This document shows positions 57,743-62,190 of a DNA stretch of 64,000 bases, piece after piece. Origin of the DNA: an uncultured beta proteobacterium (lineage in GTDB: Bacteria > Pseudomonadota > Gammaproteobacteria > Burkholderiales > Burkholderiaceae_C). Every line of letters begins with the position of its first letter. The stretch's first letter is position 1. A program made the translations under genes and the position numbers. The stretch covers positions 1 through 64,000 of the forward strand of contig CAIRAW010000051.1 in NCBI GenBank assembly GCA_903876735.1. The letters run 5' to 3'. The notes under the pieces were generated by a model, which saw nothing but the letters and a program-made list of their open reading frames with translations, made no database searches and was not told where the DNA came from.

Positions 57743-58732
57743 ATGATCCCTTTTTCAGTTCTTGACCTCTCCCCCATCATCCAGGGCGGCAATGCCGCCC
57801 AGTCCTTTCACAACACGCTGGACCTGGCGCAGCACGCCGAGCGCTGGGGCTATCAGCGCTACTGGCTGGCAGAGCACCATGGCATGCCTGGCATTGCGAG
57901 CGCCGCCACCTCGGTGCTGATCGGCCACGTGGCCGGTGGCACCCAGCGCATCCGCGTCGGCGCTGGCGGCATCATGTTGCCCAACCATTCGCCGCTGCAG
58001 ATTGCCGAACAGTTCGGTACGCTGGCCTCGCTGTACCCGGGACGCATCGACCTCGGACTCGGGCGCGCACCCGGTTCCGACCCGGTCACGGCGCGTGCCC
58101 TGCGCCGTAATCTGGCCAACGATGTTGACGAGTTTCCACGCGACGTGGTGGAGTTGATGGACTATTTTTCTGCCGACTCCAGAAACCCGGTGCACGCCGT
58201 GCCAGGTCAGGGGCTCGACGTTCCCATCTGGATTCTGGGCTCCAGCCTGTTTGGCTCACAGCTTGCCGCCGCGCTCGGACTGCCCTACGCCTTTGCCTCG
58301 CACTTCGCGCCGCAGCAGATGATGCAGGCGGTTGCGCTGTACCGCGCCAACTTCCGCCCCTCAAGCCATCTGGCCAAGCCCTACGTCATGCTGGGCTTCA
58401 ATGTCTTTGCGGCCGACAACGACGAAGAGGCGGCCTATCAGGCGACCTCGATGCAGCAGGCCTTTGTCAACCTGCGCAGCGGGCGCCCCGGCCGCTTGCC
58501 GCCACCGCTGCGTGATTACGCCAGCCATGCGGCACCAGCGGAGCGCGCCCTGCTCGACAGCGTGCTGTCGTGTTCCGCCATCGGCTCGCCGCACACCGTG
58601 CGTGCCAGTTTGAACGCCTTCATCGCGCGCACAGGCGCAGACGAACTGATGATCACCTCGCAGATTTTTGACCATGGCGCGCGCTTGCGCTCCTATGAGA
58701 TCACGTCGGAGATTTTTTCGACGCCCGGCTGA
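57743..58732 (+). CDS. Luciferase-like (LLM) flavin-dependent oxidoreductase
   Basis: The 329-residue protein is a TIM-barrel LLM-family enzyme: [20 protein letters not shown] (about 5-24), [20 protein letters not shown] (about 39-58), [20 protein letters not shown] (about 70-89) and [19 protein letters not shown] (about 104-122). It uses FMNH2 supplied by a reductase; the substrate is unknown. It stands alone between the LonB-like and SDR genes. Confidence 0.9.
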
Positions 58733-58743
58733 AAGGCTGTCGA

Positions 58744-59559
58744 TCAGACTTTGCCGGGCACCGTGACCTTGCCACCGAGGTGCATGCCGGAGTCCAGCAG
58801 AATGATCTCGCCGGTCATGGTGCGCGCACCATCAACCAGCCAGACCACGGCTTCGGCCACGTCTTCAGGAGTGCTGGCACGCGCCAATGGCGCCGTTTGC
58901 TCGTACACGGCTTTTATTTTGTCGAAGCCCTCCTGCCCGATGCCATCAACAAACCATCGCGTCGTGATAAGGCCAGGGCAGACCGCGTTGACCCGTATCT
59001 CTGGCGCCAACGCGCGCGCCAGATAGAGCGTGAGGGCATTGACCGCGCCTTTGGACGCGATATAGGGCACGGAGGAGCCGATACCCAAGGCGCCCGCAAT
59101 CGAGGATACGTTCACGACACAGCCGTGCACCGCCTTCAGGTGCGGCATGCAGGCTCGCACCATGAAAAACGCGCCCATCGCGTTGACGCCAAAGATGTGC
59201 TCAAAGGTCGGTGCGTCCAACACGTCCCAATTGGCTGCGCCTGTGAACGTGGTAACGCCCGCGTTGTTCACCAGCGCGTCCAGTCGGCCCCATCGCGCCA
59301 GCGTCGCCTGCACAAGTTTGCGGCAATCCGCATCCACTGACACATCACCCTGCAGCACCAGTGTGTCGGCTCCGGCTTGCGCACAGGCGGCTTGGGTGGC
59401 CAAGGCTTCGGCTTCGCTGCGTGAGTAATTGATCAACACGTTATAGCCCCTGGTCGCCAGCATCAGGGCGGTCGCGGCCCCCACGCCGGTGGCCGAGCCG
59501 GTGATGATGGCAACCTTGCGTCCTGTGGCGGGAGTGGATACGGCAGCTGTATGAGTCAT
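58744..59559 (-). CDS. Short-chain dehydrogenase/reductase (FabG-like)
   Basis: The 271-residue SDR has VAIITGSATGVGAATALMLA (about 16-35), NNAGVTTFTG, catalytic Ser in NVSSIAGALGIGSS and the catalytic YIASK. VCPGLITTRW near the end is the usual PG motif. FabG-like enzymes reduce oxo groups with NADPH. The start is at MTHTAAV, after AAGGTCG on the minus strand; a longer in-frame version is less likely. It is convergent with the LLM gene and divergent from the transglutaminase-like gene. Confidence 0.9.
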   Translation of the reverse strand: MTHTAAVSTPATGRKVAIITGSATGVGAATALMLATRGYNVLINYSRSEAEALATQAACAQAGADTLVLQGDVSVDADCRKLVQATLARWGRLDALVNNAGVTTFTGAANWDVLDAPTFEHIFGVNAMGAFFMVRACMPHLKAVHGCVVNVSSIAGALGIGSSVPYIASKGAVNALTLYLARALAPEIRVNAVCPGLITTRWFVDGIGQEGFDKIKAVYEQTAPLARASTPEDVAEAVVWLVDGARTMTGEIILLDSGMHLGGKVTVPGKV

Positions 59560-59671
59560 TTGAACGACCTTGTGATGACGGCGAGTTTGAGATTTGCCCA
59601 TTCTCGGCGATATTTCTTTGGCGTTTGAGAAAGCATTTACCATTCACGGGAAAACATCGGGAGACCCATGC

Positions 59672-60388
59672 ATGAACCTTCAGACCGAGCCGCCACAGTC
59701 GATTGCCCCGGATGCGGAACCTGATGCAGGCTCCTTGCGGGCCTCTGCCATGGTGGATTCAAACCACCCGCTGATTCAGGCCTTTGTTGCCGAGCATGCA
59801 AGAGGCAAGGACGACAGGGCACGTGCCGTGGCGCTGTATTACGCGGTACGCGATGGCTTCAAATACGACCCGTATCGCATTGACCTGACCGTCCATGGCA
59901 TGAGCGCGAGCACTGTGCTGGAGCAGGGCTATGGCTGGTGCGTCACCAAGGCGGCCCTGCTGACGGCCGCCTGCCGTGCAGCCGGTATCCCGTCACGTTT
60001 GGGTTTTGCCGACGTCCGCAATCACCTGTCGACGCAGCGCATGCGAGAGATGATGCAGACCGATGTTTTCATATGGCACGGCTATTCGGAAATCTGGTTG
60101 GACGGCGCCTGGCGCAAGGCAACCCCGGCGTTCAACCTGGGTCTGTGCGACAAGTTTGGTTTTTTGCCTCTGGAATTCGATGGCGTCATGGACTCGATCT
60201 ACCATGCTTTTGACCGGGTCGGCCAGCGCCACATGGAGTACCTGGCGTACCACGGCAGTTTTGACGATGTACCCCTGCCACGGATGGTCGCTGATTTTGA
60301 TCGGGTTTACAAAGGCATGGTCCACGGGCAAAGCGACTTGAAAAAAGCCGACTTTGACACGGATGTTGTTCAGGAAAATGTCAGTTGA
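59672..60388 (+). CDS. Transglutaminase-like domain protein
   Basis: The 238-residue protein has a transglutaminase-like core: Cys in GYGWCVTKAALLTAACRAAG (about 88-107), followed by IPSRLGFADVRNHL, and His in HGYSEIWLDGAWRKATPAFN (about 139-158). The third catalytic position, normally Asp in a DP motif, is Thr-Pro here. No signal peptide. The start follows CGGGAGAC. Relatives with WxKATPAFN form a recognisable subfamily of unknown function. Confidence 0.85.
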   Translation: MNLQTEPPQSIAPDAEPDAGSLRASAMVDSNHPLIQAFVAEHARGKDDRARAVALYYAVRDGFKYDPYRIDLTVHGMSASTVLEQGYGWCVTKAALLTAACRAAGIPSRLGFADVRNHLSTQRMREMMQTDVFIWHGYSEIWLDGAWRKATPAFNLGLCDKFGFLPLEFDGVMDSIYHAFDRVGQRHMEYLAYHGSFDDVPLPRMVADFDRVYKGMVHGQSDLKKADFDTDVVQENVS

Positions 60389-60401: not shown

Positions 60402-60429
60402 AAGCCGGCAGCTTGCTTGGCGCCGGCTT
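60402..60429. terminator. Hairpin between the convergent transglutaminase-like and MerR genes
   Basis: AAGCCGGC/GCCGGCTT (8-bp stem, 12-base loop) spans the end of the gap between the two convergent stops. It lacks a long T-run on either strand, so it is a weak candidate for a shared transcript end. Confidence 0.4.
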
Positions 60430-61324
60430 ACTGGACTGCAAGCTTTGTCAGTTTGTTCCAGGCTTGAACGGCCAGCGCAGTGCTCTGAAATACCTTGACC
60501 CCGGCCACAGGCGCATCGTTCAGCGACGCAAAGCCCTGACCGCCCACCCAGATCTTGCAGCCTTTGGGCAAGGCGCGGCGCAGCGCCAGCGCATAGGACC
60601 GTGCCAGCTCCGGACGCAACAGAACGCTGGCAGAAATAGCGAGCACGGTGATGCCCCAATCGTTCACCGCTCGCACCACATCGGGAACCGGCGTCTGGGT
60701 GCCCAGGTTGTAGCACTGCGCGCCTTGCAGGGTCAGCGCGGCCTGCACGCCCAGCAGGCCCAGCCCATGGTGTTCGCCCGGTGGCGTGGTCAACAAGACC
60801 CTCTGCTGCGTACTGGTAGCCTGACATCCCGGCAAGCAGCTCTGCACGCCCGTCAGTACCGCATCCGTGTAGTGGTGCTCGGCATGTATGCCGATGCGCC
60901 CGTCAGCCCAGGCATCTCCCACAGCCTGGTTGAACGCCGGCAGTTGTTCTTCGACGAAGTGAGCCAGGCCTTGCGTCTGAATGAGACCGTCGATGTATGC
61001 CCGCACCGCACCCGGAAGCGCGCCGGGCGCAAGACAGCTCAGCAGCACTTGGACTGCGTCATCCAAATCGTCCGAACCCGAAGACTCGGCGCTGTCGGCG
61101 CGCAATTTCTGCAATTTCTGCAGCGACAGGGGAATCAACCGACCGGGTCGCATGCCCTGGCCGATCAACTGCTTGACCAGTTGCAGCTTTGGCAGATCAC
61201 TGGCCCGGTACAAGCGCTGCCCGCGCGCACCGCGCTCAGGAAGCGGAAACTGGTAGCGCAACTCCCACTTGCGCAGCACTTCACGCGAGAGTCCGGTCGC
61301 CTGCTCTATCTCTGCTTGGTTCAT
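60428..61324 (-). CDS. MerR-type regulator with B12-binding (CarH/LitR-like) sensor domain
   Basis: The 298-residue protein starts with a MerR winged helix (EQATGLSREVLRKWELRYQF, then RLYRASDLPKLQLVKQLIGQ, residues about 7-54). A helical MtaA/Cap-like domain with DAWADGRIGIHAEHHYTDAV (about 143-162) follows, then a Rossmann-type B12 domain starting VLLTTPPGEHHGLGLLGVQA (about 176-195), whose EHHGLG matches the (D/E)xHxxG cobalamin-ligand motif. Related CarH/LitR proteins sense light or B12. It is divergent from ompW across a region with two copies of a palindromic 10-mer. Confidence 0.87.
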   Translation of the reverse strand: MNQAEIEQATGLSREVLRKWELRYQFPLPERGARGQRLYRASDLPKLQLVKQLIGQGMRPGRLIPLSLQKLQKLRADSAESSGSDDLDDAVQVLLSCLAPGALPGAVRAYIDGLIQTQGLAHFVEEQLPAFNQAVGDAWADGRIGIHAEHHYTDAVLTGVQSCLPGCQATSTQQRVLLTTPPGEHHGLGLLGVQAALTLQGAQCYNLGTQTPVPDVVRAVNDWGITVLAISASVLLRPELARSYALALRRALPKGCKIWVGGQGFASLNDAPVAGVKVFQSTALAVQAWNKLTKLAVQ

Positions 61325-61377: not shown

Positions 61378-61400
61378 ATTTTAGTAGGGCGTCCTGGACA
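61378..61400 (-). promoter_or_regulatory. Candidate promoter and operator of the MerR/B12 regulator gene
   Basis: On the minus strand TAAAAT (complement of 61378-61383) is a possible -10. Just upstream, at 61391-61400, lies GTCCTGGACA, a near-palindrome that would sit between -35 and -10. MerR-type regulators bind exactly there. An identical 10-mer occurs at 61501-61510. Confidence 0.45.
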
Positions 61401-61461
61401 CAGGGCATGCATTCAGGCTTGGGAGCTTCCTTGATTGAGACATCAATAATTACGGCACAGT

Positions 61462-61475
61462 TTGAGCCCGATCAA
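61462..61475 (+). promoter_or_regulatory. Fnr/Anr-like site upstream of ompW
   Basis: TTGAG-CCCG-ATCAA matches the Fnr consensus TTGAT-N4-ATCAA with one mismatch. It is centred about 125 bases before the ompW ATG, suitable for a transcript starting near 61510. OmpW is Fnr-controlled in enterobacteria. Confidence 0.45.
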
Positions 61476-61498
61476 AAACTTTAGTCATTTTGCAATAG

Positions 61499-61511
61499 TT
61501 GTCCTGGACAA
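61499..61511 (+). promoter_or_regulatory. Perfect palindrome TTGTCC-T-GGACAA near the ompW promoter
   Basis: A perfect 6+1+6 palindrome; its inner 10 bases (GTCCTGGACA) are repeated upstream of the MerR/B12 gene at 61391-61400, 110 bases away. It would overlap the predicted ompW transcript start, as expected for a repressor site. Confidence 0.5.
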
Positions 61512-61593
61512 TTGACCGGGCGCAAACCGGTCCGGCAACATCTGCTGTGGAATGGATTCCGGGAATATTCCTATGCATCAACAAGGCAAAACC

Positions 61594-62190
61594 ATGACGA
61601 AAAACATCATCACCGCGGTCGCTCTCGCTGCCGCCACCCTGGTCAGCGCAAATGCGTTCGCACAAGTCAAGGAAGGCCCCTGGATGGTTCGTGTACGCGC
61701 TGTCAGTTTGCAAAGCGCCAACTCCGACTCCACCGGTCTGTCACTGAACGTCAACAACAAGCTCATTCCTGAAGTCGATATCAGCTATTTCTATAGCAAG
61801 AATTTTTCCGTGGAACTGATTCTGACCGTCCCCCAAACGCATGACCTCAAGGCCGGCGCGGACAAGCTCGGCACCGTGACCCACCTGCCACCCACTCTGC
61901 TGGCGCAGTACCATTTTGACGCAGCTGGCCTCAAACCCTATATCGGCGCCGGCGTGAACTACACACGGTTCACCTCGACCAGTTTGCCAGCTGGCGTGGA
62001 CATTGCCCGCAATAGTTTTGGCGGTGCATTGCAGGTCGGCGTGGACATCCCGTTGTCCGCAGGCATGTACCTGAATCTGGACGTCAAGAAGGTTTTCATC
62101 GGTACCGACGTCTCGATTGACGGCAGCAAAATGGGCACCTTCAAGGTTGATCCACTGCTGGTTGGTGTGGGTCTCGGCTGGCGCTTCTAA
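61594..62190 (+). CDS. ompW: OmpW-family outer-membrane protein
   Basis: The 198-residue protein has a signal peptide (AVALAAATLVSANAFAQ) and eight beta strands with family motifs GPWMVRVRAVSLQSANSD (about 28-45), VPQTHDLKAG, LAQYHFDAAGLKPYIGAGVNY (split across 105-125) and a C-terminal Phe (GVGLGWRF) for BAM insertion. OmpW forms a small hydrophobic channel. The start at MTKNIITAV follows AAGGC. Its long upstream region carries Fnr-like and palindromic sites shared with the MerR/B12 regulator. Confidence 0.93.
   Translation: MTKNIITAVALAAATLVSANAFAQVKEGPWMVRVRAVSLQSANSDSTGLSLNVNNKLIPEVDISYFYSKNFSVELILTVPQTHDLKAGADKLGTVTHLPPTLLAQYHFDAAGLKPYIGAGVNYTRFTSTSLPAGVDIARNSFGGALQVGVDIPLSAGMYLNLDVKKVFIGTDVSIDGSKMGTFKVDPLLVGVGLGWRF

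Follow-up and report, generated by a model that had tools for sequence, protein, structure and literature searches.

Genetic organization of the carH-ompW locus

The window (the whole 64-kb stretch of DNA that was analysed) contains a gene for a CarH/LitR-type regulator, here called carH, and a divergent gene for an OmpW-family protein. The gap that separates them, measured from the start codon of the regulator (61324) to the likely one of ompW (61594), is 269 bases. The ATG at 61594 was preferred to the other in-frame ATGs (61552 and 61573) because it gives a signal-peptide-like start. The features of the locus are as follows.

60428-61324, minus strand: carH, CarH/LitR-type regulator with MerR DNA-binding and B12-binding domains (Pfam, PDB, alignment, AlphaFold2)
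61378-61383, minus strand: probable carH -10 TAAAAT, 5 nt beyond the copy-1 13-mer
61389-61401, no strand: operator copy 1 (weak; includes the 10-mer at 61391-61400), core GTCCWGGAC, 3 mismatches to TTGTCCNGGACAA; probable carH autoregulatory site
61462-61475, no strand: distal FNR-type box TTGAGCCCGATCAA of the ompW promoter, the sole TTGAN6TCAA in the window
61487-61492, minus strand: alternative -10-like CAAAAT, 6 nt beyond copy 2; possible second carH promoter
61499-61511, no strand: operator copy 2, perfect 13-base palindrome TTGTCCTGGACAA, abutting the proximal FNR-type box
61512-61525, no strand: proximal FNR-type box TTGACCGGGCGCAA, predicted centre -41.5
61548-61553, plus strand: predicted ompW -10 TGGAAT, 22 nt after the proximal box; weak (4/6)
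61594-62190, plus strand: ompW, open reading frame for an OmpW-family outer-membrane protein (Pfam OmpW, E 7.6e-34)

Beyond carH, as seen from the gap, the stretch 57743-60388 carries genes for a luciferase-like monooxygenase, an SDR oxidoreductase and a transglutaminase-like protein.

The regulator is of the CarH type

CarH is a model B12 photoreceptor and optogenetic tool, and the residues known for AdoCbl photoreception are W-x9-EH together with the histidine of E-x-H-x-x-G. This histidine is the axial B12 ligand in CarH. Both motifs were present in the regulator (W139, E149, H150, E184, H186 and G189). W139, E149, H150, E184 and H186 were invariant across a 29-row alignment, and in the ungapped rows of a 96-row set the W, E and H were found in 94/94 and E184 and H186 in 93/93. 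Pfam MerR_1 and B12-binding both scored above cut-off. The best PDB sequence match was Thermus CarH (5c8d), which aligned along the length of the regulator with an E-value of 6e-25. The NCBIfam model TransRegCarH gave 113.9 bits, below its equivalog cut-off of 400, and the protein is therefore termed CarH-type and not a confirmed CarH.

The AlphaFold2 model of the regulator (pLDDT 92) had CarH entries as its best PDB fold matches. The B12 domain was close to that of the CarH structures (approximately 2.7-3.9 Angstrom over some 200 columns), while over the full length the domain arrangement differed (rmsd 12-17). Overall, the regulator shares the MerR and B12 domains, W-x9-EH and E-x-H-x-x-G with the AdoCbl-dependent photoreceptor repressors CarH of Thermus thermophilus and of Bacillus megaterium, and its modelled B12-domain fold is the same as that of Thermus CarH. 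The conserved light and B12 residues support the reading in the earlier note of a MerR/B12 regulator that may sense light or cobalamin.

Repeated palindrome in the intergenic region

The 10-mer GTCCTGGACA was found at 61391-61400 and 61501-61510, both inside the gap and nowhere else in the window, which confirmed the two copies noticed earlier. In 100 shuffled versions of the window the mean was 0.13 copies, and two copies were reached once. Copy 2 extends to a perfect 13-base palindrome, as the earlier note had also described, and its centre base is free because the length is odd. Copy 1 as a 13-mer (GCGTCCTGGACAC) has the 9-base core intact and 3 outer mismatches to the copy-2 palindrome. 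The 8 bases that were given between the repeat and TAAAAT had been counted from the 10-mer, and the distance from the copy-1 13-mer is 5 nt.

The number of palindromes was ordinary genome-wide. In the whole genome (3.9 Mb) the 10-mer occurred 6 times against 7 + 12 for the reversed pattern, and the 13-mer at no more than one mismatch occurred 13 times against 16 in the reversed control. Across 89 same-genus genomes the perfect 13-mer and its reversed control gave summed counts of 34 and 31, respectively. The non-random feature is the position of the palindrome. A chance repeat would agree with a genome-wide 10-mer count that is not above control; it was ruled out by the conservation and position of the motif given below and is regarded as extremely improbable.

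Conservation of the operator motif upstream of carH

A carH homologue was detected in 83/200 genomes of the family and in 30/89 of the same genus, the window's own genome being counted in both. A total of 102 carH loci were fetched, with 13/83 homologue places of the family-genome set and 7/37 of the same-genus set left out. A usable start and upstream sequence was available for 96 loci, and the six that were dropped (L028, L038, L039, L043, L053 and L057) had no N-terminus or no 150 nt upstream. Loci L059-L064 and L068 duplicate same-genus places and were excluded from the 96-region counts.

The degenerate motif TTGTCYWRGACAA was present at no more than one mismatch within 300 nt upstream of carH-like genes in 81/96 regions, window included, compared to a mean of 0.05 in dinucleotide shuffles and 1 with the reversed pattern. 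Related carH genes are not independent in this count, which is also somewhat favoured because the degenerate form, like the FNR-type box score used below, was derived from the same sequences that were later counted. The 81 regions comprised 21/25 of the same genus (window included), 59/70 of other genera or records, and L099, which entered the set via the motif search and without which the count is 80/95. By genus, the site was present in 45/54 (three extra records counted apart). The other 15/96 upstream regions had no site at this threshold. A stricter pattern derived from the window, TTGTCCNGGACAA, was found in 20/25 same-genus upstream regions and in 0 of the control. Pooling of 109 sites showed that information was limited to a 15-bp palindrome, TTTGTCYWRGACAAA, and the 21 same-genus sites alone added a few weak columns outside it. 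Examination of 28 perfect 13-mers (34 in the genus) showed that 14 were within 300 nt of a carH-like start and that, by eye, 11 of the other 14 were inside genes. Separately, L099 (G241 contig 327) had three operator copies before its CarH-like gene, at -276, -244 and -221.

Operators were often paired. Of 46 adjacent pairs (at most two mismatches), 30 were spaced 62-65 bp, equal to six helical turns, and these belonged to 30 genes from 21 genera plus two extra records. A genome-wide search with the twin pattern, not restricted to carH, found it in 12/399 family genomes and the reversed control in 0. All 12 places precede a CarH-like gene, which in one case (L172) is a partial 32% match, and 3 of the 12 genomes (G130, G139 and G145) were also in the set from which the pattern was taken. 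The window copies are 110 bp apart instead of the usual 62-65 bp. Looping between them is not favoured, since 110 bp makes approximately 10.5 turns and the spacing in relatives is 62-65 bp.

The palindrome is supported as a conserved operator-like element of the CarH-type family, and the copies in the window are very probably operators of the adjacent regulator, judging from these sequence comparisons. CarH is predicted to bind the palindrome; alternatively, another, unlinked regulator could control carH genes through it. This is very unlikely, given that the site stays with carH in 45/54 genera or records despite changing neighbours and that the genome-wide twin pattern lies beside a CarH-like gene in 12/12 places.

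Operator copy 1 and the carH promoter

Copy 1 is located at -77 from the carH ATG, and the nearest site was at -47 to -97 in 18/20 other same-genus carH genes having one. The distance of 5 nt to TAAAAT is like that in six receiver-gene promoters described below, in which the operator lies 5 or 6 nt before the -10. Scanning the gap for sigma-70 promoters gave no complete one. The simplest reading is that copy 1 is likely to be the carH autoregulatory site. Control of its own gene by the regulator, as proposed in the earlier note, is in agreement with the position and -10 spacing of copy 1, which are those expected of such a site.

Operator copy 2 and the ompW promoter

One search returned 94 ompW places, of which 30 were read, own included; L120 was excluded from the promoter counts (27% identity). 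At least one FNR-type box was present in 34/37 ompW promoters of the family, compared to 1.9 in mononucleotide shuffles. NNNAAT occurred exactly 22 nt past the proximal box in 28/37 promoters (window included); each of the other distances between 5 and 44 nt gave it in at most 3/37. A distal FNR-type box accompanied the proximal one in 18/37 promoters, window included, often approximately 50 bp apart (L112-L119, L177-L205). In class II FNR promoters the box is centred at -41.5 (PMC4886647, seen in part). The spacing of proximal box and -10 in the family is thus class II-like, and the window fits it with a predicted start near 61560.

In the window promoter, copy 2 occupies the interval between the distal and the proximal FNR-type box and directly adjoins the latter. 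A composite FNR-box/operator pattern built from the window promoter was absent from 398 other family genomes, and a promoter-proximal operator was found in 0/37 other ompW genes (350 nt upstream each). At least 3 mismatches were present everywhere in 36/37 of these upstream regions, and L115 had a 1-mismatch match at -350 that, by reading, is inside the upstream gene. OmpW was encoded in 1/121 carH-type loci, namely the window locus (flanks were mostly approximately 1.5 kb and some loci are duplicates). As a conserved CarH target, ompW was rejected for the 37 other ompW genes. The earlier note had looked to orthologous gaps for the motif: it is present in most of those upstream of carH and absent from those upstream of ompW. 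Its proposal that ompW shares the operators of the regulator is favoured by copy 2 abutting an FNR-type box in a promoter that is ordinary for ompW in other respects, and disfavoured by the lack of such a site near the start of all 37 other ompW genes.

The main rival is a second carH promoter, because CAAAAT lies 6 nt past copy 2 on the strand opposite to ompW; on the ompW strand no -10 was found 5-6 nt past copy 2. Both palindromes would then serve carH only, through two tandem carH promoters with the operator 5-6 nt before each -10 (TAAAAT 5 nt past copy 1, CAAAAT 6 nt past copy 2), and ompW would be a bystander. Two operators before carH in many relatives of other genera (30 pairs, 62-65 bp) would suit this arrangement, as would the lack of the site at the other ompW genes examined. 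However, CAAAAT is poor as a -10, copy 2 is at -187 from carH and so outside the -47 to -97 seen in 18/20 same-genus genes, the copy spacing is 110 bp and not 62-65 bp, and copy 2 fits between both ompW FNR-type boxes. We regard service to carH only as possible, at rather long odds. Copy 2 matches too well for an accident, and its service to ompW is argued from placement. Control of ompW by the CarH-type regulator is therefore plausible from the anatomy, namely the placement of copy 2 in the ompW promoter, and we lean slightly towards it. With no composite or proximal site found in the other genomes and ompW genes compared, it is so far unique to this genome.

Genes adjacent to carH and other operator-bearing genes

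At ten same-genus loci (carH 40-58% identical), the gene divergent from carH was in a CheB-CheR cluster, of which one member was scanned. A receiver gene adjoined carH in 5/6 loci with a 68-71% identical carH, the exception being L033. In L054 (carH 87% over 67 residues, at a contig end) the divergent gene by reading resembles the PAS-GGDEF-EAL protein of contig 9 of the window genome, described below. In other genera, genes near carH included glutathione peroxidase, flavin amine oxidoreductase, photolyase-related and lipocalin genes (one member per cluster scanned).

On contig 9 of the window genome, a PAS-GGDEF-EAL gene is preceded by a stand-alone receiver gene. Before the receiver gene, TCGTCCTGGACAA (G000 contig 9:49090-49102, L069; 1 mismatch) was located 5 nt upstream of TATGAT. 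The two best genus homologues of this receiver gene adjoin carH, and in five carH-adjacent receiver homologues 6 nt separate the operator from a TATANT downstream of it. Among the 30 receiver loci read, 24 were without a site at 1 mismatch. From its promoter, the contig 9 receiver gene is a likely CarH target that would link the sensor to cyclic-di-GMP signalling.

Other operator-bearing genes were also observed. The window genome has two copies of an 85-aa gene with no Pfam match, each preceded by a CarH-type operator (contig 16:28833-28845, L070 2834-2846; contig 75:8198-8210, L072) that is perfect or has 1 mismatch and stands 59 nt before the aligned start. As a conserved target this gene was rejected, since the site was present in 3/31 upstream regions (the two here and one 93% relative, G272), and four relatives at 86-89% were without it. 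L095 (G232 contig 21:114564) had a perfect operator beside a gene with a CheB-CheR-like start and no carH-like match in the locus; it is perhaps a decayed carH copy. L103 (G251 contig 13:6445) had a perfect operator before a gene that by reading is similar to the flavin amine oxidoreductases found close to carH in other genera, again with no carH-like match in the locus.

Comparison with known systems

The published sources cited here were seen in part, and the comparisons are limited to those parts. The operators of Thermus and Bacillus megaterium CarH consist of three or four tandem 11-bp direct repeats nnnnTnnACAn (PMC9304148, PMC8156234), unlike the operators of the window family, in which a 15-bp palindrome is not accompanied by any regular 11-bp repeat. 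Tandem repeats around the palindrome were looked for by TnnACA offsets in 106 sites and none were found: TnnACA was at offset 0 in 92/106 sites and at any other offset within 44 nt in at most 7 (offset -21), and ACA at +11 was present in 12/106. The direct-repeat operator is a trait of the characterised operators and not of the protein family, and published designs vary.

PplR1 and PmlR2 of Pseudomonas belong to the LitR/CarH family like the regulator, and their TGTACA-N12-TGTACA sites differ from the palindrome; class II is thought not to bind B12, and PmlR2 is a repressor with two sites, at -35 and after the start (PMC9758184). Myxobacterial CarA/CarH operators have a plastic design with inverted repeats at some, Cystobacter CarH is a dimer, and most Sorangiineae and Nannocystineae apparently have two operators for two divergent promoters (PMC9304148). 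The myxobacterial operators, unlike the window palindromes, contain 11-bp repeats, spanning approximately 55 bp at the promoter of M. xanthus. Their targets are carotenoid genes, and the parts of that source seen make no mention of ompW, receiver or CheB/CheR targets for CarA/CarH (PMC9304148).

For E. coli ompW, FNR sites at -81.5 and -126.5 (45 bp apart) and a CRP site at -42.5 are described (PMC4886647). The window promoter likewise has two FNR-type sites, here 50 bp apart. It departs from E. coli ompW in the class II-like spacing of the proximal box and in having a CarH-type operator between the two. A literal search of open-licence papers for the operator in six 13-mer versions gave none, a term search of PMC11796333 had no hits, and neither a CarH-OmpW link nor the palindrome was found among the open-licence matches listed (titles and abstract beginnings). 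From the comparison with the CarH direct repeats and the LitR sites, the regulator is a protein of known kind with a variant operator: CarH operators are known, and those compared from publications are, as far as seen, unlike this short palindrome with its frequent pairing. The ompW link, if real, is a new CarH target in a single genome.

Proposed mechanism

In the dark, AdoCbl-bound CarH would bind both palindromes, and light or the lack of AdoCbl would release it. At copy 1, CarH would cover DNA just upstream of its own -10 and repress itself. At copy 2, it would sit between the ompW FNR-type boxes and touch the proximal class II (-41.5) box, so that activation of ompW would be hindered. Expression of ompW would then need an FNR-type signal plus light or AdoCbl loss. 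The CarH-type residues and fold, the recurrence of the operator before carH and the element spacing in both promoters are seen in the sequence, whereas DNA binding, dark repression, release by light and the direction of the effect on ompW are what we infer. As a whole, this mechanism at carH and ompW is judged slightly better than an even chance.

A different effect was also considered, in which CarH at copy 2 activates ompW, as a MerR-like or upstream activator near the FNR-type box, or acts in an oxygen-dependent way. The centre of copy 2 lies at about -55 relative to the predicted start, a position that would also be open to activators, and a MerR-like protein of Vibrio cholerae is described as a suppressor or enhancer in the blue-light response (PMC5241685, seen in part). 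On the other hand, two sources, in the parts seen, present CarH and class II LitR as repressors (PMC9304148, PMC9758184), and activation or an oxygen-dependent effect is considered unlikely.

A broader proposal is put forward tentatively. A beta-proteobacterial branch may use CarH with a 15-bp palindromic operator, often paired at 62-65 bp, and a single AdoCbl tetramer could span both copies until light takes it apart. One copy may here have been captured by an FNR-type ompW promoter, so that an outer-membrane channel would respond jointly to oxygen and to light or B12. Many CarH proteins are predicted to use short palindromes, often in helically phased pairs, which would allow a direct test of how the tetramer or dimer engages DNA. 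In the genus, the operator lies before signalling genes (receiver plus GGDEF-EAL, CheB-CheR), and the ompW case stands alone as far as searched. This points to a rewired control by light or B12 that reaches further than pigments and repair, and the composite ompW promoter would be a compact and testable light-and-oxygen gate.
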